Of a stretch of DNA of 64,000 nt, positions 33,153 to 53,346 are shown in pieces. Numbering within the stretch: the first letter of the stretch is position 1; each line of letters opens with the position of its first letter. The translations under genes were made by a program, and so were the position numbers. The DNA comes from Pannonibacter sp. SL95 (GTDB taxonomy: Bacteria > Pseudomonadota > Alphaproteobacteria > Rhizobiales > Stappiaceae). Below the pieces are notes generated by a model. It saw only the letters and a list, made by a program, of their open reading frames with translations, was not told the DNA's origin and searched no databases. Where the stretch lies: positions 1,470,501 to 1,534,500 of the forward strand of contig NZ_JAPPRC010000003.1 in the NCBI RefSeq assembly GCF_026672425.1. Reading direction: 5' to 3'.

Positions 33153-34469
33153 ATGAGTGACCTCTTCTCCGCCGCGTCCACGCCGCTCGGACCCCGGCCG
33201 CTTGCCGACCGGCTGCGGCCGCAGCGGCTGGAGGATGTGGTGGGGCAGGACCATCTGCTTGGCCCCGATGGCACGCTCTCGCGCATGCTGCGGACCCGCA
33301 CGCTTGGCTCGCTGATCTTCTGGGGCCCTCCTGGAACCGGCAAGACGACAATTGCCCGGCTGCTTGCGGACGCAACCGATCTCGGCTTCGAGCAGGTCTC
33401 GGCGATCTTTACCGGCGTGGCCGATCTGAAGAAGGTGTTCGAGAACGCCAGGGTCCGCCGCATGGCCGGGCGTGGCACCTTGTTGTTCGTCGACGAGATC
33501 CATCGGTTCAACCGGGCACAACAGGACAGCTTCCTGCCGGTGATGGAAGACGGAACCATCACGCTGATCGGGGCCACGACGGAAAACCCGTCCTTCGAGC
33601 TGAACGCGGCGCTGCTGTCACGGTCGCATGTGATGACGTTCCGGTCGCTGGACAGTGAGGCGATCGGCCGGCTGCTGGAGCGGGCGGAAGCGGAGGAGGG
33701 CCGTCCCTTGCCGCTGGATGCAGAGGCGCGCGCTGTGCTGATCCGCATGGCCGACGGGGACGGGCGGTCCTCGCTGACACTTGCCGAGGATGTCTGGCGC
33801 GCGGCGGAACCGGGCGAGGTGTTTGACGCGGCGCGGCTGCAGGAGATCGTCCAGCGCCGCGCACCGATCTACGACAAGAGCCAGGACGGCCACTACAATC
33901 TGATCTCGGCCCTGCACAAGTCCGTGCGCGGCTCGGATCCCGACGCGGCACTCTACTGGTACTGCCGCATGCTGGATGGCGGCGAGGACCCGCTTTATCT
34001 CGCCCGCCGGCTGATCCGCATGGCGGTGGAGGACATCGGTCTGGCCGATCCGCAGGCGCTGGTTCAGGCGAATGCGGCGCGCGATGCCTACCAGATGCTG
34101 GGTTCACCGGAGGGCGAACTCGCTCTCGCCCAGTGTGTCGTCTATCTGGCCACGGCGCCGAAGTCGAACGGGGTCTATGTCGCCTACAAGGCCGCGGTCC
34201 GTGCGGCAAAGGCGAATGGCTCGCTGCTGCCGCCCAAGCATATCCTCAATGCCCCGACCAAGCTGATGAAGAACGAAGGCTATGGCGAGGGCTATGCCTA
34301 TGACCATGACGCGCCCGATGGCTTCTCGGGCCAGGACTATTTCCCCGAGAGCATGGGGCGGCAGACGTTCTACGATCCACCGGAGCGCGGCTTCGAACGC
34401 GAGATCCGCAAGCGGCTGGACTACTGGGCGCGGCTGCGCCGTGAACGCAGCCGCAGCGACCGCTCTTAG
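33153..34469 (+). CDS. rarA: Replication-associated recombination protein A (AAA+ ATPase)
   Basis: RarA (MgsA) is an AAA+ ATPase related to clamp loaders; it acts at stalled replication forks and interacts with SSB. The 438-residue product starts MSDLFSAASTPLGPRPLADRLRP, has Walker A GPPGTGKTT near residues 58-66 and Walker B LLFVDEIHRFN near 110-120, and sensor 1 in LIGATTENPSFELN. The C-terminal tetramerisation region contains YLARRLIRMAVEDIGLADP and the substrate-like PPKHILNAPT. Full length, no anomalies. Confidence 0.95.
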   Translation: MSDLFSAASTPLGPRPLADRLRPQRLEDVVGQDHLLGPDGTLSRMLRTRTLGSLIFWGPPGTGKTTIARLLADATDLGFEQVSAIFTGVADLKKVFENARVRRMAGRGTLLFVDEIHRFNRAQQDSFLPVMEDGTITLIGATTENPSFELNAALLSRSHVMTFRSLDSEAIGRLLERAEAEEGRPLPLDAEARAVLIRMADGDGRSSLTLAEDVWRAAEPGEVFDAARLQEIVQRRAPIYDKSQDGHYNLISALHKSVRGSDPDAALYWYCRMLDGGEDPLYLARRLIRMAVEDIGLADPQALVQANAARDAYQMLGSPEGELALAQCVVYLATAPKSNGVYVAYKAAVRAAKANGSLLPPKHILNAPTKLMKNEGYGEGYAYDHDAPDGFSGQDYFPESMGRQTFYDPPERGFEREIRKRLDYWARLRRERSRSDRS

Positions 34470-38644: not shown

Positions 38645-39325
38645 ATGTATCTCATCCTGTTTGATTGTGACGGCACGCTGGTGGACAGCCAGGAGACCAT
38701 CCTGCACGGCCTTGAGGTCGGCTTTGCCGATGTGGGCCTGCCGATGCCGGGGCGGCGCGAGGCGCTGTCGATTGTCGGGCTGTCGCTGGAGCGGGCCTTC
38801 GCCCAGCTCGTCGGCCCGGAGCACCAGGACAAGGTCGGCCGGATGGCTGCCGCCTATCGGGCCTCCAAGCAGCAGCGGCGGGCGCAAGGGCTGGATTTCG
38901 ATCCGCTCTATCCCGGTGCCCGCGAGGCTGTCGATCGCATCGGCCAGCGCGGGGACGTGCTGATGGGGCTTGCCACTGGCAAGGCACGCCGCGGCGTCGA
39001 TCACATGCTGAAGGTCCATGACCTCGAAGGCCGTTTCATCACCATCCAGACCGCTGATACCAGCCCGTCCAAGCCGCATCCGGACATGATCCTGAGGGCC
39101 ATGGGCGAGACCGGTGCGGGCAGGGACCGCACGGTGATGATCGGGGACACCAGTTTCGACATGCAGATGGCCCGGGCGGCGGGCGCGCATGCGGTCGGGG
39201 TGACATGGGGCTATCACGACGGCGCTGCGCTGGCAGCTGCGGGCGCCGATCTGGTCATTGATACGTTTGCCGAGCTTGAGGCAGCGCTGGCAGCGCGTCT
39301 CGGCTGGGCTCTGGAGAACAGCTGA
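38645..39325 (+). CDS. HAD-family phosphatase, phosphoglycolate phosphatase-like
   Basis: A 226-residue haloacid-dehalogenase phosphatase. Motif I is FDCDGTLVDS with nucleophile Asp7 and acid/base Asp9; motif II Thr is in GLATGK near residue 110; motif III/IV is the MIGDTSFDMQMA region near residue 164. The cap is helical, as in Gph and PpaX. It may clear phosphoglycolate or act on another small phosphate ester. Its stop overlaps the next start (TGATG), so it is coupled to the ATP12 gene. Confidence 0.88.
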   Translation: MYLILFDCDGTLVDSQETILHGLEVGFADVGLPMPGRREALSIVGLSLERAFAQLVGPEHQDKVGRMAAAYRASKQQRRAQGLDFDPLYPGAREAVDRIGQRGDVLMGLATGKARRGVDHMLKVHDLEGRFITIQTADTSPSKPHPDMILRAMGETGAGRDRTVMIGDTSFDMQMARAAGAHAVGVTWGYHDGAALAAAGADLVIDTFAELEAALAARLGWALENS

Positions 39326-40107
39326 TGCGCGACATCTTCGAAGACCTCAACTCGGATCTTGCCAAGTACGACCCGGTCGAACGGGCCAAGGAACTGGCGC
39401 GCCGCGAACTGCCGAAGCGCTTCTACCAGAGTGTCGGCATTACCGAGACCGAGGGCGGGCATGCAGTGACCCTCGACGGGCGCCAGGTGAAGACGCCAGC
39501 CAAGAAGCTGCTGGCCCTGCCCAACAAGGCGCTTGCCGAGGCGGTAGCGGCGGAATGGGACGCTCAGGAGAGCGTCATCAACCCCGGTCTCATGCCGTTG
39601 ACGCGCATCGCCAATGCGGCAATCGATGCCGTCGGCCAGCGTTTTGCCGAGGTGGCGGACGAGATCGCCCGCTATGCCGGCAATGACGCCCTGTGCTACC
39701 GCGCCGAAGACCCGGCGCGCCTGGCCGAGCGTCAGCGCCTCACCTGGGATCCGCTGCTGGAGGCAGCGGCCGCAGAGCTTGGCGCGCGGTTCCGCCTTGG
39801 GGCAGGCGTCATGCATGTCGGTCAGGACGAGGCCCTGGTTGCAGCCTATCGCAAGGCGCTGGACGGCTTCAGCCCGCTCCAGCTCGCGGCCCTGCATACG
39901 GTGACCTCGATCACCGGCTCGGCGGTTATTGCCCTATTGCTGGCACGTGGCGCGCACGAGGCCGAGGCGCTGTGGTCCGCGGCGCATGTCGACGAGGACT
40001 GGAATGCCGAACTTTGGGGCGAAGACGCGGAAGCAAAACGCATCCGCGCCTACAAGCGCAAGGAATATGACGCGGCAGCGCTGATCTTGACCTCCAGCCC
40101 CCAGTAG
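39325..40107 (+). CDS. ATP12-family F1-ATPase assembly chaperone
   Basis: Homologue of mitochondrial Atp12, which binds the F1 alpha subunit before hexamer assembly; found mainly in alphaproteobacteria and mitochondria. The 260-residue product has the family N-terminal segment RELPKRFYQSVGI, the TLDGRQVKTPAKKLLALPN strand region near residue 48, and the conserved C-terminal HTVTSITGSAVIALLLARG with acidic AHVDEDWN. The start overlaps the phosphatase stop by one base. It is strong evidence for an alphaproteobacterial source. Confidence 0.93.
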   Translation: MRDIFEDLNSDLAKYDPVERAKELARRELPKRFYQSVGITETEGGHAVTLDGRQVKTPAKKLLALPNKALAEAVAAEWDAQESVINPGLMPLTRIANAAIDAVGQRFAEVADEIARYAGNDALCYRAEDPARLAERQRLTWDPLLEAAAAELGARFRLGAGVMHVGQDEALVAAYRKALDGFSPLQLAALHTVTSITGSAVIALLLARGAHEAEALWSAAHVDEDWNAELWGEDAEAKRIRAYKRKEYDAAALILTSSPQ

Positions 40108-40139
40108 AGCTGCTTTCCGGCAGGTCGCTGCTTGAATGC

Positions 40140-40673
40140 TTAGGCCCGGGCCGTGGACCTGCCAAGAAAACGCCGGCGCAGGATCTGGCACAGGACCGTC
40201 GCCGAGACATAGAGGCCGACGCCAAACGCGAAATGCGTACAAAGGTTTCGAATGCGTGCCCCCATCGGATCTGGCGACAGGCTTGATGCGATGCCAAACC
40301 CCATGCTTGGCTGCATCAGGAAGAACGGCGCGATGATCGTCGAGATGCCGAAGATCAGCGCCGGCAAGAGAGTTGGCCGACGAACCCAGTCCAGCCCCAT
40401 GACAGCCAGAAACAGGCCGGCGAACAGAATGCCGACCATGTAGTGACCCAGCCAGCCGATGATTACCTCGTTGGCGAACTCAGGGGCCTGCATGATCGTT
40501 GAATGCTGGAACGTGCCGTCGGCCAGATGGGCAAACCATCGTCCGAGGATGGCGTTGCTTGCCCCGCGCATGCCAAGGAATGTGCCGCTGAACAGAATCC
40601 ATAGATCGAGAACCAAGGTGGCTCCTATTCCGACAAACAGCGAATAGAGAACATAATCCCTGTATTTGGTCAT
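40140..40673 (-). CDS. DUF2938 family membrane protein
   Basis: A 177-residue inner-membrane protein of unknown function with about five predicted helices (around residues 7-26, 72-96, 103-122 and 143-165 among them). The GRWFAHLADGTF, NEVIIGWLGHYMVG and GLDWVRRPTLLPALIFG segments match what I recall of the DUF2938 family. The start MTKYRDYVLY at 40673 is chosen because GAGGG lies six bases upstream; a longer form from 40694 is possible. It converges on the ATP12 gene with a 32-base gap. No function is known. Confidence 0.8.
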   Translation of the reverse strand: MTKYRDYVLYSLFVGIGATLVLDLWILFSGTFLGMRGASNAILGRWFAHLADGTFQHSTIMQAPEFANEVIIGWLGHYMVGILFAGLFLAVMGLDWVRRPTLLPALIFGISTIIAPFFLMQPSMGFGIASSLSPDPMGARIRNLCTHFAFGVGLYVSATVLCQILRRRFLGRSTARA

Positions 40674-40886
40674 AACTGATCCCTCACGATCCAAACTTAC
40701 ATGCTCTTGCGCCAGACCAACCGGGATCGCAGCGGTTGGTGCGAGGCTGATCTATGCTGCGCTTCGGCTGGCGTGCTCGTGCCGGTGCCGGAATGCCTGC
40801 ATGTCCGTTTCAGGTTGGCGCCGGAAGCAGATTGAATCCAAAGATGTCCAGCATTGGCAGCGTGACCGTCTGCGCTGGAAAAGGGG

Positions 40887-41525
40887 TTAGCTTCGTCTGC
40901 TTGAAAGCTCTGACCGCGATGCTCGGACCAGGCAGTCAATGGCAACGCGCATGCCATCGGAGCGCCTGACCGGGCGTTCGATGCGGCTGGCCTTCTCGAT
41001 CGACAGTGTGCCGGCGAGAATTCCGGCAACGTCATCGGCGGTGTAGAGTACCTCTGGATCCTGAGGGCCGCCTGTGCCGTGGCGCAGATTGTCGCTGTCG
41101 TGTCCGACCAACAGCAGAGTGCCCTCAGGCGCGACGGCGCGCGCCGCGGTCCTCAACACTTGCCGAAGTTCCTCCATAGGTACCTGCAAGTAGAAAATGA
41201 TGACGAGGTCGAAACCGTTTTCGCGCGGAATGAAGTTAAGCAGATCAGAGGTTTCTGTCGTCAGTTGCCGGGAAACGCCGCGCTGCGCGGCCAGCTTCGC
41301 CGCCTTTTCTAAGGCGACCTCCGAGAAGTCGACCGCATGGACTTGCCAGCCCTGTTCGCAAAGCCAAACGGCGTTGCGCCCTTCACCGGCCGCAAGGTCC
41401 AGCGCGACACCGGGTGTCATCCCTATCAATTCCAGCTTGAGGGACGTGTTCGCTTCTTCGGTCCAGATAAACTCACTGGTGGCGTAACGACGGTTCCAGT
41501 CGTCCCGCTGCATAGGAATGAACAT
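40887..41525 (-). CDS. Class I SAM-dependent methyltransferase
   Basis: A 212-residue soluble methyltransferase. Motif I (ALDLAAGEGRNAVWL) lies at about residues 41-55, an acidic residue for SAM ribose binding in VDFSEVALEKA near 65, and the later motif FDLVIIFYLQVP near 104. The N-terminal RDDWNRRYATSEFIWT resembles TehB/thiopurine-type enzymes, but no substrate can be named. GAGGAGA precedes the ATG at 41525. Codon use is less GC-biased than in neighbours, which might hint at recent acquisition. Bases 40695-40886 and 41526-41694 around it show no gene. Confidence 0.85.
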   Translation of the reverse strand: MFIPMQRDDWNRRYATSEFIWTEEANTSLKLELIGMTPGVALDLAAGEGRNAVWLCEQGWQVHAVDFSEVALEKAAKLAAQRGVSRQLTTETSDLLNFIPRENGFDLVIIFYLQVPMEELRQVLRTAARAVAPEGTLLLVGHDSDNLRHGTGGPQDPEVLYTADDVAGILAGTLSIEKASRIERPVRRSDGMRVAIDCLVRASRSELSSRRS

Positions 41526-41694
41526 GCTTGTCTCCTCGCTGACCTGGCACGACCTGTCGAACTAGGGCAGCTTAGAGGCAGGCAAGGACTGCGGGGAACA
41601 GGCGCGAAATGCATTCAAATGCTGCATTTCGCGCAGGCGTCAGCTCTGGTCACCAGAAATGGACATACCGCGACCGGTTTTGTTGGTGCCAAGT

Positions 41695-42426
41695 TCAGAT
41701 CTCGAATTCCTCGATCTCCGTGAAGGCCTTGCGCAGGGCGTTGGACCAGGCGGAGGACAAGGTCTGGAAATACGGATCATCCTTGTGGATGCGCTTCTGC
41801 CGCTTCAGCGTGTAGCTGTCGGTGTTGTAGAGCAGCAGATCGATCGGCATGCCAACAGAGAGATTCGACCGGAGGGTCGAATCGAAGGACAGCAGCACCA
41901 GCTTGGCAGCCTCGCCCAGGCGCATGTCCGAGCGGGTGACACGGTCGAGGATCGGCTTGCCGTATTTGTGCTCGCCGATCTGGAAGAACGGCGTGTCCTT
42001 CGTTGCCTCGATGAAGTTGCCGGCCGAATAGATCTGGAACAGGCGCGGCTCCTCGCCCTTGATCTGGCCGCCGAAGATCATCGTGACGAAGAAGCTCTCG
42101 GCATTGGCCGCCAAAGCCTCGCCATCAATGGCGCGCACGTCACGCACCGACTGGCCAACCAGCCGGGCTGCCTGGAACATGGTCTCCACGGTCATCAGGT
42201 TGACCGGGTTCTGGGTCGGTGCAGCGATCTGTTCCGACAGGATCGACACGACAGACTGCGAGACTGCAAGGTTGCCAGCGGTCATCAGCGAGAAGACGCG
42301 CTCGCCCGGCAGTTCCCAGGTGTGCAGTTTCTTGAAGCAGGCGATGTTGTCCACGCCCGCGTTGGTGCGGGTGTCGGCGGCAAAGACGAGCCCCCGATCC
42401 AGTTTCAATCCGACGCAATAGGTCAC
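41695..42426 (-). CDS. Anbu (proteasome-like peptidase, ancestral beta subunit)
   Basis: A 243-residue N-terminal-nucleophile hydrolase of the T1 family. The chosen GTG at 42426 gives VTYCVGLKLDRGLVFAADTR: Thr2 would become the N-terminal nucleophile after Met removal, with Asp18 and a Lys pair at 32-33 where proteasome beta subunits carry catalytic Asp and Lys. A longer frame from 42456 would bury the Thr and is rejected. No HslU- or Mpa-like ATPase is nearby. It is the last gene of a four-gene minus-strand cluster with a transglutaminase, an alpha-E protein and an ATP-grasp enzyme. Anbu assembles as a stacked, spiral-like ring in studied species; its substrate is unknown. Confidence 0.9.
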   Translation of the reverse strand: MTYCVGLKLDRGLVFAADTRTNAGVDNIACFKKLHTWELPGERVFSLMTAGNLAVSQSVVSILSEQIAAPTQNPVNLMTVETMFQAARLVGQSVRDVRAIDGEALAANAESFFVTMIFGGQIKGEEPRLFQIYSAGNFIEATKDTPFFQIGEHKYGKPILDRVTRSDMRLGEAAKLVLLSFDSTLRSNLSVGMPIDLLLYNTDSYTLKRQKRIHKDDPYFQTLSSAWSNALRKAFTEIEEFEI

Positions 42427-42466
42427 GTGTCGTCTGCCTCTGATAGCGGCGGCCACTCAGGCGCGG

Positions 42467-43285
42467 CTATTGCTGCTGTTGCTGTCCCTCGGCGCGCAGG
42501 ACGTCGACCTCGACGCGCAGGTTCTCCTCGGTGCCACCAAACCGGATGCCGCGGATCGGAGAAGCGGAACGCGAGTCCAGCCCAACCGTCAAGCGGATAT
42601 AGCGATCCGTCGGGCACAAGCCGTTGGAGATGTCGAAACCGACCCAGCCAAGCCCCTCGAGCCACGCCTCGGCCCAGGCGTGATGGGCCTCAGATTCCTG
42701 CTCGGCCTCCAGATGCAGATAGCCGGATGTGTAGCGGGCCGGGACACCTGCGGCGCGGGCGGCGGCAATGAAGATATGCGCATGGTCCTGGCAGACGCCT
42801 TCGCCGGTGGCGAGCGCCTCCTGGGCGGAGGCATGTGTCTCCGTCACGCCAATTCGGTAACCGACCTTGTCGCGGATGGCGTGCATCAGCGCGTGGCAGC
42901 CGGCAATCTGATCTGCAGGGGTGATCAGCTGCGCGAGCTTGCGGATCGCCTGGTTTGCCTCGGTGAGCTGGGTGACGCGGGTGAAGACGCGGACGGGTGC
43001 CTCGGCGACCTCCTGTCCGATCACCCCTGCGAGATCTGCCGTTTCCACTTCGCCGGTGGCGGTGATCTCGACCTCCTCGATCGGCAGGCTGGAGGAGATC
43101 ATGTGCACCAGATTGCCGAACGCATCGTGATAGGCCGTGGCGCGCTCGATGCCGGGGGCATTGATGGACCAGGACAGGATCCGCTGGCCCGGTCCATGCG
43201 GCGGCGTCAGGCGCAGCTGCTGCATGGCGTTGGCGAGCGGCGTGTCATAGCGGTAGCGCGTTGTGTGGCGAACAGTGAGGCGCAT
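42467..43285 (-). CDS. Transglutaminase-like cysteine protease
   Basis: A 272-residue protein with a bacterial transglutaminase N-terminal beta domain (about 1-100, MRLTVRHTTRYRYDTP) and a papain-like core. The triad is Cys165 (GEGVCQDHAH), His202 (HHAWAEAW) and Asp218 (GFDISNG). It ends in a run of five Gln, which is odd for the family and might be a processed or interacting tail. No signal peptide is seen, so it acts in the cytoplasm. It lies 46 bases after the alpha-E gene and 40 before Anbu, in the standard module order, and probably cleaves or deconjugates the peptide made by the ATP-grasp enzyme. Confidence 0.92.
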   Translation of the reverse strand: MRLTVRHTTRYRYDTPLANAMQQLRLTPPHGPGQRILSWSINAPGIERATAYHDAFGNLVHMISSSLPIEEVEITATGEVETADLAGVIGQEVAEAPVRVFTRVTQLTEANQAIRKLAQLITPADQIAGCHALMHAIRDKVGYRIGVTETHASAQEALATGEGVCQDHAHIFIAAARAAGVPARYTSGYLHLEAEQESEAHHAWAEAWLEGLGWVGFDISNGLCPTDRYIRLTVGLDSRSASPIRGIRFGGTEENLRVEVDVLRAEGQQQQQ

Positions 43286-43331
43286 GGTCGTTTATCCTCG
43301 GTCCGTCTGGGAAGACGTCTCAGGCGCAATT

Positions 43332-44276
43332 TCAGGCGAAGTTGTAGTCACGCGCGAGCCGGTCAGCGAAAGCGTTGTTGCGCAAGGTGAAATCGGTCAG
43401 AAACTCATGCAGACCGCTCTCGAAGATGTCTTTCATCGATCCGCCGCGCAGCTGTTCGTGGATGACGGCTGCCTGTGCCGCGCTGGGCATCTCGTCGCCG
43501 TAGAAGGCGGTGAGATCGGCCATTGTACCATTGATCCAGTCGTAGCAATGGGCGAGCGAGCGCGGCATTTCCCGGCGCAGGATGAGGAAGTCTGCCACAT
43601 TCACGCCCTTGATGCGCGGGTCGGGATAGGCAAAGCGATAGCTTCTGAGGCCCGACATGACGCGCAGGATCGACGTCCACTGGTGATGATGCGCGTTGCC
43701 GCCCACGTCGGTGTCCGGCAGGAAGATCCAGTAGCGCGTGTCCAGAACCCGAGCCGTGTGGTCGGCGCGCTCGACGAAATGACCGAGCTGCGAGAAGTAA
43801 TAGCCGTCATCGCGCAGGATCGTTCCCAGCAGCGCGCCGCGGAACAGCAGCGTCCGCTGGCCGATCCAGGCCAGAAACTCCGGCAGCCGGTCCTGGCTGA
43901 CCGTTTGTGGCTTCACGTCGGCAAACTCGATCCAGGTGGTGTTGATCGCCTCCCACATGTCCGAGGTGATGCCGGTGCGGACCGAGCGGGCATTGTTGCG
44001 CGCGGTCTCGAGGCCGGAATGGATCGAGGAGGGGTTGCGCTTGTCGAACAGCATGAACTGAACGACGCCGCGCTGGGTGATCTCGCCGATCTTTTCCTTG
44101 TAGGCGGCCTCGCAACCGGCACCGGCGAGCACCGACCGCCAGTCGCCGGCAGGATCGGTGCCGAGGTGCGGCAGCATGGCCGTGCGCCAGGCTGCTTCCA
44201 GCAGCTTGGCAGTGTTGTGCGCGCGCTCCTGATAGCGCGACATCCAGAACAGGGAGGAGGCGGTACGGCCAAGCAT
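43332..44276 (-). CDS. Alpha-E domain protein
   Basis: A 314-residue, mostly helical protein of the alpha-E family (DUF403). It starts MLGRTASSLFWMSRYQERAHN, the family signature, at ATG 44276; GGAGGA sits inside the end of the upstream gene, with only four bases between them. An in-frame extension to 44348 lies in that gene and is rejected. The RADHTARVLDTRYW segment near residue 182 is also typical. Biochemical role unknown; it always travels with the circularly permuted ATP-grasp, so it may be its partner or scaffold. Confidence 0.92.
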   Translation of the reverse strand: MLGRTASSLFWMSRYQERAHNTAKLLEAAWRTAMLPHLGTDPAGDWRSVLAGAGCEAAYKEKIGEITQRGVVQFMLFDKRNPSSIHSGLETARNNARSVRTGITSDMWEAINTTWIEFADVKPQTVSQDRLPEFLAWIGQRTLLFRGALLGTILRDDGYYFSQLGHFVERADHTARVLDTRYWIFLPDTDVGGNAHHHQWTSILRVMSGLRSYRFAYPDPRIKGVNVADFLILRREMPRSLAHCYDWINGTMADLTAFYGDEMPSAAQAAVIHEQLRGGSMKDIFESGLHEFLTDFTLRNNAFADRLARDYNFA

Positions 44277-44280
44277 GCGA

Positions 44281-45705
44281 TCAGTCCTCCAGAACCCAGG
44301 TATCCTTGGTGCCGCCACCCTGGCTGGAATTGACCACCAGGGAGCCATTCTTCAGCGCCACGCGGGTCAATCCTCCCGGCGTGATGCGCACCTGATCGCC
44401 GATCAGCACGAAGGGGCGCAAATCGACATGGCGCGGGGCAACGCCCGAGGCCACATGCGTCGGGCAGGCCGAGAGTGCCAGCGTCGGCTGGGCGATGTAG
44501 TTGGTCGGATTGGCCTTGAGGATCTCGCGGAAGGCGGCGATTTCCCGTTTCGAGGCGGTCGGTCCGATCAGCATGCCGTAGCCGCCCGAGCCATGCACCT
44601 CCTTGACGACGATGTCGGCCAGGTTGTCGAGCACATAGGCAAGGTCGTCGGGCCGTGAGCAGTTCCAGGTCGGCACGTTGTTCAGGATCGGCTTTTGCCC
44701 GGTGTAGAACTCGATGATGTCCGGGACATAGGCGTAGATCGCCTTGTCGTCGGCAATGCCGGTGCCCGGCGCATTGCAGATCGTCACCGTGCCGGCGCGA
44801 TAGGCGTCGAACAGGCCCGGCACGCCCAGCATCGAATCCGGCCGGAAGGTGAGGGGATCCAGGAACGCATCGTCGATGCGGCGGTAGATGACATCCACCT
44901 GCTTCGGCTTGCGCGTGGTGCGCATCCAGACCTTGCCATTGTCGACAAAGAGGTCACGGCCCTCGACCAGCTCTACACCCATCTGGTCGGCGAGGAAGGC
45001 GTGCTCGAAATAGGCCGAGTTGTAGATGCCGGGCGTCAGGATGCAGATGGTCGGATCCCCGTTCGCCCCCTCCGGCGCAACGCTCTCCAGCGTCTGGCGC
45101 AAAAGTTCCGGGTAGTGCTCGATGGGCGCCACCCGGTGCATCTGGAAGAGGTCCGGGAACATCCGCATCATCGTTTCGCGGTTCTCCAGCATGTAGGAGA
45201 CGCCGGAGGGCGTGCGGGTGTTATCCTCCAGAACATAAAAGTCATTCTCGCCGACGCGAACGAGATCAGTGCCAATGATATGAGAATAGACGCGCCGGGC
45301 CGGGGTGAAGCCGACCATCTCGGGCAGGAAGGCTGCGTTCTGGATGATCAGGTCGGCGGGGATGCGGCCGGCGCGGATGATCTCCTGGCGGTGGTAGATG
45401 TCATGCAGGAAGGCGTTGAGCGCGCGCACGCGCTGGTCGATGCCGGCCGAAAGACGCCGCCACTCGCCAGCCGAGAGGATGCGCGGGATCGGGTCAAAGG
45501 GAATGAGCCGTTCGGTCGCTGCCTGCGCGCCATAGACGGCGAAGGTGATGCCGAGGCGGCGGAAGATGGTTTCGGCCTCGCGGTTCTTGCGCGACAGGAA
45601 GCCTTTCGGCTGCTTGTCCAGCCAGTCTGCAAGCCGGGCATAGGCCGGGCGGACCGTGCCATCCAGTCCCAGCATTTCGTTGAACACCACCCGTTCTGCG
45701 GCCAT
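44281..45705 (-). CDS. Circularly permuted ATP-grasp type 2 protein
   Basis: A 474-residue enzyme of the circularly permuted ATP-grasp type 2 family (DUF404/DUF407), expected to form amide or peptide bonds using ATP. Conserved segments include [21 protein letters not shown] near residue 160, [18 protein letters not shown] near 315, [17 protein letters not shown] near 370 and [15 protein letters not shown] at the end. The start [13 protein letters not shown] at 45705 follows GGGGGAG; the longer frame to 45909 includes the intergenic region. It is the first gene of the ATP-grasp, alpha-E, transglutaminase, Anbu cluster. Confidence 0.92.
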
Positions 45706-45935
45706 GTTCTCCCCCGTCGTCGTTTGCCGATCATTTAGGCAAGCATGGCAAATGCCATCAGACTGCAAAAGCGCAATCTTCCGGCTTGGCTGCCTTACCT
45801 TTAGGCACATTGTCGGGCTTGCTTGGCTGTCCATCACCCGGTAGGAGCCCGGCGTCCATCTTTGTGCTGACTTTCCGGGCTTTGCGCGCTCATGATAGAC
45901 CGATGGCAAAGCACGTCATGCCAAAGGGGCACACC

Positions 45936-47468
45936 ATGAAGGAAATCCTGGCCGAACTGGAACACCGGCGCGAAACCGCGCGGCTCGGCGGCGGATTGAA
46001 GCGCATCGACGCCCAGCACGCGCGGGGCAAGCTGACGGCACGCGAGCGCATCGACATTTTCCTCGACGAAGGGTCGTTCGAGGAATTCGACATGTTCAAG
46101 CAGCACCGCTGCACCGACTTCGGCATGGACGAGGCGCATATCCCGGGGGACGGCGTCGTCACGGGCTGGGGCACGGTCAATGGCCGTGTTGTCTATGTCT
46201 TTTCCAAGGATTTCACGGTCTTTGGCGGATCGCTGTCCGAAACCCATGCCCAAAAAATCATCAAGATCCAGGACATGGCGCTGCAGAACCGGGCTCCGAT
46301 CATCGGGCTGTTCGACGCTGGCGGCGCGCGCATCCAGGAAGGCGTTGCCGCGCTGGCCGGCTATGGCGAGGTGTTCCAGCGCAACGTGATCGCCTCGGGT
46401 GTGATCCCGCAGATCTCGCTGATCATGGGCCCCTGCGCCGGCGGCGATGTCTATTCGCCCGCGATGACCGACTTCATCTTCATGGTGCGCGACACGTCCT
46501 ACATGTTCGTGACCGGGCCGGATGTGGTGAAGACCGTGACCAATGAAACGGTGACGGCCGAGGAATTGGGCGGGGCAAGCGTCCACACCACCAAGTCCTC
46601 CATCGCCGATGGCGGCTTCGACAATGATGTCGAGGCGCTTCTGGAGATGCGCCGCCTCATCGACTTCCTGCCGATGAACAACGCGGCCGATGTGCCGGAA
46701 GTCGATTGCCACGACGATCCCTCGCGGCTCGATCTCAGCCTCGACACGCTGATTCCGAACAATCCGAACAAGCCCTATGACATGAAGGAACTGGTGCTGA
46801 AGACCGTCGACGAGAGCGACTTCTTCGAGATCCAGGCCGGATTTGCCAAGAACATCATCACTGGCTTCGGCCGCATCGAGGGCCGGACGGTGGGCATCAT
46901 TGCCAACCAGCCGATGGTGCTTGCGGGTGTGCTGGACAGTGACGCCAGCCGCAAGGCCGCGCGGTTCGTGCGCTTCTGCGACTGTTTCAACATACCGATC
47001 GTCACCTTCGTCGACGTTCCGGGCTTCCTGCCGGGCACGGCGCAGGAATATGGCGGGTTGATCAAGCATGGCGCCAAGCTGCTGTTTGCCTATGCCGAAG
47101 CGACCGTTCCGAAAGTCACCGTCATCACCCGCAAGGCCTATGGCGGGGCCTATGACGTGATGAGCTCCAAGCACATCGGCGGCGACATCAACTACGCCTG
47201 GCCGACGGCCGAGATTGCGGTGATGGGGGCCAAGGGCGCAGTCGAGATCCTGTACCGCTCGGAACTGGCCGACAAGGACAAGATCGCCAAGCGGACCAAG
47301 GACTACGAGACCCGCTTCGCCAATCCCTTCGTTGCAGCCGAGCGCGGCTACATTGACGAGGTGATCATGCCGCATTCGACCCGCAAGCGCGTCTCCCGCG
47401 CGCTGGCACTGCTGCGTGCCAAGAAAGTGGCAATGCCGCTGAAGAAGCACGACAACATCCCGCTCTGA
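45936..47468 (+). CDS. pccB: Propionyl-CoA carboxylase beta subunit (carboxyltransferase)
   Basis: It transfers the carboxyl group from biotin to propionyl-CoA, giving methylmalonyl-CoA. The 510-residue product starts [19 protein letters not shown], preceded by AAAGGGG; two upstream in-frame ATGs (45903, 45918) are less well placed. The tandem crotonase-like halves contain [14 protein letters not shown] and [14 protein letters not shown] (about residues 125-170) and the second-half oxyanion region [15 protein letters not shown] and [14 protein letters not shown]-like segment near 395. The biotin subunit pccA lies 3.9 kb away on the same strand. Confidence 0.94.
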
Positions 47469-47506
47469 GCGGCAAAGCCGGGCAGGGCGCTTCACGACGC
47501 TGAATG

Positions 47507-47539
47507 AAAAAGGGCGGATCCGGGGATCCGCCCTTTTTT
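47507..47539. terminator. Bidirectional terminator between pccB and the chemoreceptor
   Basis: GGGCGGATC (47512-47520) pairs with GATCCGCCC (47525-47533) around a CGGG loop, flanked by AAAAA on the left and a T run on the right. It can terminate both pccB (+ strand) and the converging chemoreceptor gene (- strand). Confidence 0.92.
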
Positions 47540-47564
47540 ATGTCTGCACGCGTCTGACAGGCCG

Positions 47565-49355
47565 TCAGGCGGCCTTGACGGAGGTCTCGGACACGAAGGC
47601 TTCGATGGCTTTCTGCAGCACGCTTGCGCGCTGGTTGAGGGTCTGGGCCTCGTCCTGCAGCTTGTCGGCGAGACGGCTGTTGTCCTGGGTCATCGACCCG
47701 ACCTGGTTGACCGACTGGGTCAGGGTGTCGGTGTTGTGGGTCGAGACCTGGGCGGCACGGGCGATTTCGCCGGTTGCCTCTTCCTGCTGGGCGATCGAGA
47801 AGGCGAGATCTTCGACGAAGCCCTGCATTTCGGTCAGGATGCCGTTGATTGAGTTGATCGACGAGACGGAGCTGGTGGTCGAGCTCTGGATCGCCTCGAT
47901 CTGGGTGCGGATGTCGTCGGTTGCCCGGGCGGTCTGGTTGGCGAGCGTCTTCACTTCGGCTGCCACAACCGCGAAGCCCTTGCCGGATTCGCCGGCGCGG
48001 GCGGCCTCGATGGTGGCGTTGAGGGCCAGGAGATTGGTCTGTTCGGCAATGTCCTGGATGAGGCCGATGACGGTGCCGATGCTCTCGGCCATCTTGTCGA
48101 GCCGCTCCATATTGGTGCTTGCCTCGGACGAGACTGAACTTGCAGCGCCGATGCGGGTCTTCACATGGGTGATGCGCGAGGTGATCTCGGACAGGGACGA
48201 GGTCAGCTCGGTGGTCGCAGACGCCACGGTCTGGGCGGCGGAGCCAGCCTCGGACGTTGCCACCAGCGAGCGGCGGGACTGTTCATCCGTTGCGCTGGCC
48301 GAGTGCTTGAGCTGGCCAGAGATGCCCTGAAGATCCTTCACCGAGCCTGACAGATCGCCAAAGATGCCGGCGACGCGTTCATTGAAGGACATGGCGATGT
48401 TGCGCCGTTCGGCTGCGATGCGCTGATTGACGGCGGCGGCCTCTTCGGCCTGACGGCCTTCCATCGCCCGCTTTTCGATCAGGGACTGGCGGAAGCTTTC
48501 GAGGGCGGTCGCCATGTCCCCGATCTCGTCGCTGCGCCCCAGTGCAGAGATCTGCGTATCAATAGCACCGCCGGCGATGGCGGTCATGTCGTTGCCCAGC
48601 CGGTTCATGCTGCGCAGCATGGCGAAGTAGACGAGGGCGACCAGGCCGAACAGCGTTGCCAGGGTGACGGCAATCGAGATGTCGAGGATCAGATTGGCCA
48701 TTTTGTTTTCGGCCTGGCCCTCGTCGATCGCAGAACTGGTGCGCTCTTCCATCAGCTGGTAGAACTTGTCGACCGGCTTCATGATGTTGGACTTAAAGGT
48801 GTGGTACTGCGCACTGTGCAGCATCTTGATCGGCTTGGCCGGATCGTCGGTCGCGATCGGCTTGCCGTCCTTGTCGAGACCCTTGATGTAGTTCATGGCC
48901 TCAACTTCCAGCGCCACGAGGCCATCGGAGTTTTTCTTGGCTTCGTCGAGCAGCGCCATTTCGGCTTCCGTGAAGCCTGCGGCAATCATCCGGTCCTGCA
49001 GTGATTGGGTCGATCCGTCGGCGCGCGGCTTGGCGTTGCCGGCCGCGACAAAGTCCCAATAGATGCGATGGTAGTCCTGAGGCGTCGGCTTCTTGCCGTT
49101 GCGGATGTCGAGGATCGCGTTGTACTGCGCCTCAAATTGCGCGTCACCTGTCACCACATAAGTCCGGGCAAGGCGTGTCAGGTCATCCGAGCTCTGGCGC
49201 AGTTCATCGGCCAGCAAGTATGACTGATACTTGCTCTCGATTGCCTCTCCCAGGTGATGGTTGGCGTGTGCGGACTGCTGCAGTGCAAACACGAGGCCGG
49301 CGCCCGATACTGCGGAGATGCCTGCTGCCACAAGTATGAGTGTAGAAATTCGCAT
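47565..49355 (-). CDS. Methyl-accepting chemotaxis protein with helical-bundle sensor
   Basis: A 596-residue chemoreceptor. A membrane helix (about 4-26) precedes a periplasmic domain of about 190 residues that is mainly helical ([24 protein letters not shown]), resembling four-helix or HBM-type sensors, then a second helix (about 220-245), a HAMP domain and the signalling coiled coil with [19 protein letters not shown] near residue 448. It ends in a short VKAA with no CheR pentapeptide. The start [12 protein letters not shown] is preceded by a GGGGGAA-type site. Small organic acids are typical ligands of such sensors, but no ligand is assigned. Confidence 0.9.
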
Positions 49356-49671
49356 TACAATTCCCCCGAGTGGCCGATTATGCCGTAAGGGAATTTTGCA
49401 GCGCCCCTGTAAATGAGCGGTTAAATTTCGAAAATTTGCATCTTTTCTAGGTTAAGTGACATATACTCTTGATTGTATTTTCAAGCAGTGCATTTACTCA
49501 AATGATTAACCAGTCCAGATTTGAAATTTTGCTGTGTGATTTTGCATATTTTCATGATTTGATTTGGGGTTGTTTCGGTCTGATCGTGCTTAACGAGCAG
49601 GGGGCAAAGTCTCCGGGTTGTTGCGGCGCGGAACTTGCTTTATCCGAATAAATATCGATGCCGCGTCATCT
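49356..49671. other. AT-rich intergenic region
   Basis: About 316 bases between the chemoreceptor start and the end of the small secreted gene. Bases 49420-49570 are markedly AT-rich compared with the rest of the window, with many TTT/AAA runs. On the minus strand a CATAAT at about 49378 could be a -10 element for the chemoreceptor, but no clear -35 was found. No gene was recognised. Confidence 0.6.
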
Positions 49672-51104: not shown

Positions 51105-51333
51105 AACACCCCCCGTATTTATTACCGGGGTGGATAATAGTTGGAAATTACTAAAAATGTCTCAGCTTCCTTAGGGTTGATCAGGGGTGAAGAACGCGCT
51201 GAAGTGGTGCGATCTGTCCGGTTGCCTTCCCGGTCATGTCATCCTTTGGTGATATTGCGCGGCAGGTGGCCAAGCGCCTACAACCAGATCACCCAACACC
51301 ACAGAGCCAATGAATAGGCGGGGGCAGACGCGC

Positions 51334-53342
<2,009 letters not shown>

Positions 53343-53346
<4 letters not shown>

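Follow-up and report, generated by a model that had tools for sequence, protein, structure and literature searches.

The four-gene Anbu operon of Pannonibacter sp. SL95: a constant ATP-grasp/Alpha-E pair, a dependent Anbu and conserved NtrC-type promoter sites

A 64,000-nucleotide stretch of the genome of the alphaproteobacterium Pannonibacter sp. SL95 (contig NZ_JAPPRC010000003.1, positions 1,470,501 to 1,534,500; the window hereafter) carries four genes which code for an ATP-grasp ligase, an Alpha-E protein, a transglutaminase-like cysteine enzyme and the proteasome relative Anbu (Table 1). This cluster is the canonical four-gene Anbu operon, i.e. an already described system rather than a new kind of system, whose constant part is the ATP-grasp/Alpha-E pair, with Anbu as an add-on requiring that pair, and whose upstream DNA is enriched in conserved NtrC-type promoter sites. 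Computation shows the families, the gene order, the catalytic residues, the one-sided dependence, the occurrence of natural fusions and the palindromes. As an explanation we tentatively favor an amide-making and amide-cleaving cycle under nitrogen control, used when nitrogen is short, and hold this with appreciable but less than even confidence.

Table 1. Coordinates of the operon, its promoter elements and related or neighboring genes; positions with no prefix are those of the window.
Feature	Position	Strand	Details
ATP-grasp ligase gene, circularly permuted, glutathione-synthetase-like fold	44281..45705	-	474 residues; Pfam, PDB match
Alpha-E gene, all-helical, internally duplicated, two ER motifs	43332..44276	-	314 residues; Pfam, AlphaFold2, hhalign
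Transglutaminase-like cysteine enzyme gene, triad Cys165-His202-Asp218	42467..43285	-	272 residues; Pfam, alignment
Anbu gene, proteasome family, GTG start	41695..42426	-	243 residues; PDB match, residues
Palindrome TGCCTAAAGGTAAGGCA, NtrC-type TGC-N11-GCA	45791..45807	-	102 bases before ATP-grasp start
Palindrome TGCCTAAATGATCGGCA, NtrC-type TGC-N11-GCA	45725..45741	-	36 bases before ATP-grasp start
Conserved core between palindromes, putatively RpoD-like (by eye)	45741..45768	-	alignment of 21 upstream regions
Fused ATP-grasp/Alpha-E gene, second cluster	L164:2898-5459		
Fused ATP-grasp/Alpha-E gene, second cluster	L166:763-3291		
Fused ATP-grasp/Alpha-E gene, second cluster	L167:9790-12300		
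Fused ATP-grasp/Alpha-E gene, second cluster	L169:8301-10919		
Second host Anbu gene, outside window	G000:C3:1357857-1358576 (L034:8855-9577)	-	
Other PF00227 protein of host genome, presumably HslV	G000:C4:462857-463366		
MgsA/RarA (AAA+) gene	33153-34469		
SAM (S-adenosylmethionine) methyltransferase gene	40887-41525		
DUF2938 gene	40140-40694		
Carboxyltransferase gene, propionyl-CoA carboxylase type	45906-47468		
Biotin-carboxylase gene, propionyl-CoA carboxylase type	51310-53346		

An earlier reading of the letters alone (the sequence-only reading) had placed the four genes on the minus strand, ATP-grasp first, followed by Alpha-E, the transglutaminase and Anbu, and had given the gaps as 4, 46 and 40 bases; the open reading frame (ORF) coordinates agree on every point, and Pfam profile searches bear out the four families it had named. 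The ATP-grasp protein matches CP_ATPgrasp_2 (8e-170) and CP_ATPgrasp_1 (1e-152), the second protein Alpha-E (2.5e-83), the third Transglut_core (4e-24) and Bact_transglu_N (6e-22), and the fourth Proteasome (2.5e-9); NCBIfam at its cut-offs gave no name for any of them. In sequence searches of the PDB the ATP-grasp protein matches 3n6x (4e-209) and Anbu matches 5nyj (4e-106) and 5nyf (2e-105), the transglutaminase aligns along part of its length with the distant 3isr (9e-12), and Alpha-E is without a match. The Anbu protein is 90%, 86% and 85% identical to those of its nearest named relatives, P. carbonis, P. indicus and P. phragmitetus, respectively. Its predicted catalytic residues Thr2, Asp18 and Lys33 (start residue counted; Thr1, Asp17 and Lys32 in mature numbering), of which the sequence-only reading had picked out Thr2 and Asp18 along with a Lys pair, are invariant in 18/18 aligned homologues, and the Thr comes directly after the start codon with no propeptide. 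The S1 pocket (T20, F30, T48, L52 and S55, counted from the Thr) is the one listed for Pseudomonas aeruginosa Anbu-1 (PMC5666114). The third protein has the Cys-His-Asp triad of transglutaminase-like cysteine enzymes: among 25 aligned sequences His202 and Asp218 are shared by all and Cys165 by 24. The exception, from a locus devoid of Anbu (L133:7374-8231), carries a Ser at the position of the catalytic Cys (GLSQD).

The distribution of these genes was followed in the host family (87 genomes), in an evenly drawn phylum sample of 299 genomes with Anbu called at E <= 1e-20, and in 20 family loci chosen from the 70 positive genomes, 80 named loci and 40 chosen loci from 37 families. Of the 87 genomes of the host family 70 have Anbu, and 16 of the 17 negative ones belong to one genus (g5; G012-G027), in which all 16 genomes examined have no Anbu match, as if the gene had been lost in that genus. 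The gene order of the window recurs in 20/20 chosen family loci and is complete in 69 of the 80 named loci, the other 11 being short of at least one upstream gene in the DNA examined; the check on co-occurrence in related genomes that the sequence-only reading had proposed therefore did not refute it. Across the phylum sample Alpha-E is present in 156 genomes and Anbu in 101: both occur in 100, Anbu alone in one (G180), Alpha-E alone in 56 and neither in 142 (Fisher odds ratio 254, p 3e-37, the p being overstated since the genomes are related). With a single Anbu row and a single Alpha-E row taken from each genome, the two genes lie within 2.5 kilobases (kb) on the same strand in 66 of the 101 Anbu genomes, within 8 kb in 20 more, and far apart or on separate contigs in 13, with two unplaced. 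In 40/40 chosen loci the first recognised gene upstream of Alpha-E codes for ATP-grasp and lies on the same strand, with a gap below 200 bases in 39 of them and of 766 bases in the other (L144). The transglutaminase directly follows Alpha-E in 24 of these loci, and Anbu lies downstream in the same orientation in 21 (about 3.5 kb off in two) and on the opposite strand in two more. It is because of the 40/40 loci, the 100/101 Anbu genomes with Alpha-E and the 56/156 Alpha-E genomes without Anbu that we take ATP-grasp and Alpha-E to be the constant part and Anbu to be dependent on them. Thus, the four-gene module of the sequence-only reading stands as to families and operon, whereas only the ATP-grasp/Alpha-E pair in it is constant and Anbu is optional.

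Alpha-E yields a confident, all-helical AlphaFold2 model (52 homologues; predicted local distance difference test score, pLDDT, 91.6; predicted template modeling score, pTM, 0.91), for which a Foldseek search of the PDB returned nothing below E 0.4, with template modeling scores of at most 0.29 in the best 50 of 222 matches. The sole match in profile searches, cullin-4B (three rows, from E 0.0084), was judged to be due to chance and rejected as a relative. The two halves of the protein are homologous (residues 1-130 versus 131-314; hhalign probability 99%, E 8e-18; 20 column shuffles reached no more than 0.9%), and from this sequence comparison Alpha-E is recognised as an internal duplication. 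Each half has an ER motif, with E17, R18, E169 and R170 invariant in 52 sequences. Four of the 40 chosen loci also carry a fused ATP-grasp/Alpha-E protein of 836-872 residues (Table 1). The clusters with the fused genes lie near a transglutaminase-like gene, and two further loci (L157 and L170) have a 1116-residue transglutaminase-like ORF in place of the fused gene. The fusion of L166 (842 residues, 68-row alignment) is modeled with pLDDT 90.2 and pTM 0.87, and because of these values its ATP-grasp and Alpha-E domains are predicted to be held in a fixed arrangement. The ATP-grasp part of this model matches 3n6x (1.3e-28) and also resembles glutathione, homoglutathione and trypanothione synthetases and the fungal ligase Cp1B; the glutathionylspermidine synthetase/amidase (GspSA) 2io7 is matched at E 2.2e-6. 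GspSA pairs an ATP-grasp with a cysteine amidase. Its ATP-grasp is of the same fold group, and the resemblance to the window operon is one of logic only: the latter has separate genes, a transglutaminase-like enzyme instead of the amidase domain, and Alpha-E and Anbu in addition. Cp1B, in turn, couples a small acid to an amino acid through an amide bond (PMC12568646).

Together, these features lead to the proposal that ATP-grasp and Alpha-E form one ligase complex, which would join a carboxylate to an amine, while the ligase product would be processed or cleaved by the transglutaminase-like enzyme, a cysteine enzyme, and by Anbu, a threonine hydrolase, which would make Anbu a dedicated hydrolase rather than a general protease. 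In a narrower and less probable version of this proposal, Anbu is the product-specific amidohydrolase of an NtrC-controlled cycle, the ATP-grasp/Alpha-E pair is an obligate ligase, and the product, for instance a peptide or a peptidyl-amine conjugate, buffers nitrogen and is the sole Anbu substrate. A product-specific Anbu would explain its inactivity on proteasome substrates: standard peptides are left uncleaved by the Anbu proteins tested (PMC6376114, PMC5666114). An obligate ligase would likewise explain why the ATP-grasp protein of Yersinia bercovieri, which liberates phosphate from ATP (PMC6376114), gave phosphate release only, whether by itself or in the presence of Anbu, HslV, Gln or Glu; Alpha-E is not mentioned as a partner in the available parts of that work. 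An alternative, published proposal (PMC6376114) has ATP-grasp, Alpha-E and the transglutaminase attach a peptide to proteins, with Anbu degrading the tagged proteins or removing the tag. The sequence-only reading had correctly recognised this prediction of peptide synthesis, tagging and degradation along with the families and the operon (PMC5666114, PMC6376114), but nothing computed here favors protein tagging specifically. It draws on the presence of two amide-forming families beside a proteasome relative and on the dependence of Anbu on the ligase pair; we nonetheless consider it improbable, given that none of the four genes codes for a tag, that the ATP-grasp fold is a small-molecule ligase fold, that more than a third of the Alpha-E genomes have no Anbu and that the operon has no unfoldase. 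On this last point the sequence-only reading, which had seen no unfoldase nearby, holds for the operon itself and, for the surroundings, within the scope covered: of the 57 window ORFs, the 17 scanned with Pfam include a single AAA+ protein, MgsA/RarA, the other 40 being judged by eye.

The palindromes before the operon, TGCCTAAAGGTAAGGCA and TGCCTAAATGATCGGCA, which are 66 bases apart, conform to TGC-N11-GCA, the NtrC site established in Sinorhizobium meliloti by gel shift, substitutions and footprint (PMC10746234). They were spotted while 21 family upstream regions were being read for a sigma54 test, the motif being chosen post hoc; greater independence attaches to the tests on the 36 regions outside the host family, assigned by their record names, and on the 40 phylum loci. 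The pair recurs at the 66-base distance in 8 of the 21 family regions, the window included, and at least one strict TGC-N11-GCA is present in 17 of them. One or more such sites occur in 62 of 84 upstream regions, although the 63 named-locus regions partly repeat family species. Among 68 non-redundant regions spacing 11 gives 69 matches in 48 regions as against 4-20 for each of 18 other spacings; outside the host family it gives 28 matches versus at most 14, and in the phylum loci 18 matches in 15 regions versus 1-9. Conserved NtrC-type sites are accordingly enriched upstream of the operon at spacing 11 only, and the protein that would bind them, judging from the motif, is NtrC, which we propose to act on the operon promoter with either sign of control. 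The enteric-type TGCACTTTTATGGTGCA was found once among the 40 phylum loci (L136). The same 40 loci have three strict sigma54 elements versus 0.12 expected, and the host NtrC retains GAFTGA. In the window itself a candidate sigma54 promoter, TGGCATTTGCCATGCT (45742-45757), scoring 9/12, was dropped: 137 of 1398 background windows (9.8%) score at least 9, and it is unconserved in the 20 family loci. TGC-N11-GCA before alphaproteobacterial Anbu operons was not found in the open-licence literature searched.

These sites fit the published nitrogen control of Pseudomonas and Burkholderia relatives of the operon. In Pseudomonas putida PP_2685 (Anbu) and PP_2688 (ATP-grasp) are up with nitrate (log2 4.44 and 3.99; PMC8050072), and PP_2685-2688 have been assigned to NtrB/NtrC (PMC7801951). 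In Burkholderia cenocepacia I35_5080-83, which code for ATP-grasp, Alpha-E and two transglutaminases, are down 6-9-fold in an ntrC mutant and are sigma54-linked (PMC5491218). In marine metagenomes the same domains accompany urea metabolism (PMC3597751). There is some precedent for a nitrogen-type link in Alphaproteobacteria, because a sigma54 link has already been predicted for COG3484, a protease of the proteasome type, in alpha-, beta- and gammaproteobacteria (PMC12316311). The regulatory region of an ATP-grasp (COG2308) gene of S. meliloti is among those associated with nodule competitiveness (PMC8407117).

Several observations weigh against an amide cycle under nitrogen control. Four of the 21 family regions (L050, L053, L058 and L059) have no strict site, and the host family shows no conserved sigma54 promoter upstream of the operon despite the GAFTGA of the host NtrC. 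Since one palindrome is close to the likely transcription start, NtrC could repress the operon. The narrower pattern TGCMYAAN6GGCA defines no regulon in the host genome (11 matches versus 8 for the reversed control, with none of the genes beside the matches recognisable by eye as a nitrogen gene), and 12 genomes have 124 matches versus 130 in the control. Upstream regions of glnB in genus g6 are mostly devoid of sites (2/6 have one). In P. putida PP_2685 rose little in one study (1.12, 4.81 and 1.45), whereas PP_2686-2688 rose more than 11-fold (PMC7801951), and the main text of a Caulobacter NtrC study names no proteasome, Alpha-E or ATP-grasp, although Caulobacter vibrioides has Alpha-E. With respect to the enzymes, the Y. 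bercovieri Anbu showed no specific binding of operon partners and left ATP-grasp turnover unchanged (PMC6376114), and the literature knows neither an Anbu activity nor an ATP-grasp product.

Some of these points would be accommodated if the palindromes belonged to another regulator or served the divergent pccB, with no nitrogen control in this lineage. The intergenic DNA at 45706-45905 is common to the operon and pccB, and the inner consensus, approximately TGCCTAA-N3-TTAGGCA, is more specific than TGC-N11-GCA; the g6 glnB promoters and the missing conserved sigma54 promoter point the same way. However, in Roseibium-type loci, where pccB is about 1.5 kb away, the sites remain with ATP-grasp, and spacing 11 also leads outside the family and across the phylum. 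Moreover, 26 P-II gene upstream regions have 29 sites in 17 regions versus about 7 expected from the background rate, and the host glnB (L071) is itself preceded by two sites, 279 and 213 bases before its start and hence also 66 apart, a pairing found in 11 of 1682 background windows, these loci themselves being among them. We consider this reading of the palindromes unlikely, though far from negligible.

The host genome encodes another Anbu, which shares about 50% identity with that of the operon and is located beside rpsD (by eye). No ATP-grasp, Alpha-E or transglutaminase gene is among the ORFs listed around it, and its 260 upstream bases have no TGC-N11-GCA. Its Thr1, Asp17 and Lys32 are intact, its S1 pocket reads T20, V30, S48, L52 and T55, and such a second copy is present in 6 of the 87 family genomes, namely every one of the five from the host's own genus, plus G011. 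A partnerless copy of this kind would suit an Anbu that is an ATP-independent protease raising protein turnover in nitrogen starvation, the other three genes serving it or a parallel task. The P. putida nitrogen data (PMC8050072, PMC7801951) are compatible with this, and so are the open, lock-washer-like assemblies with retained catalytic residues (PMC5666114, PMC6376114) and the binding of proteasome inhibitors of the epoxomicin type by P. aeruginosa Anbu (PMC5666114). The last study reads the inhibitor binding and the ring shape as signs of protein degradation, which it favors, arguing against a role in peptide synthesis, and this too weighs against the amide cycle. Set against such a protease are the standard peptides that the tested Anbu proteins leave intact and the single genome of 101 with Anbu but no Alpha-E, and we regard it as rather unlikely.

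With regard to the neighborhood, the SAM methyltransferase and DUF2938 genes come after the operon in the window; they were rejected as operon members, as by tblastn neither is beside it in any of 20 family loci. A carboxyltransferase gene and a biotin-carboxylase gene of the propionyl-CoA carboxylase type are near the operon, and the carboxyltransferase gene has upstream DNA in common with ATP-grasp. An Rfam scan of 39000-49500 gave no match.

The four-gene operon has been described since 2008-2009 (Valas & Bourne 2008 and Iyer 2009, as cited in PMC5666114, PMC6376114) and was structurally studied in 2017. Compared to the Anbu operons of Y. bercovieri, P. aeruginosa and Hyphomicrobium, that of the window has the same four families in the same order, the same Thr1, Asp17 and Lys32, an S1 pocket identical to that of P. 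aeruginosa Anbu-1 and the 5nyj/5nyf match. There is no essential gene difference; what sets the host lineage apart is its own promoter layout and, in the host, the second, partnerless Anbu. B. cenocepacia I35_5080-83 has ATP-grasp, Alpha-E and transglutaminase genes as in the window, but with a second, large transglutaminase gene and, in the available parts of that report, no Anbu listed (PMC5491218), while the window has no conserved sigma54 promoter. The 20S proteasome and HslV have the family fold and the Thr/Asp/Lys residues in common with Anbu, and differ from it in that the Anbu operon lacks an unfoldase and Anbu a propeptide.

Anbu is thus a proteasome relative for which the portions of the literature examined name no substrate or activator, and the dependence and promoter results make this long-standing question easier to test. 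Alpha-E, which is confidently modeled and for which no PDB match was found, is a target for structure determination. If both the dependence on the ligase pair and the nitrogen control are true, the question of the Anbu substrate would become testable in ordinary laboratory strains via the product of the ATP-grasp/Alpha-E pair.

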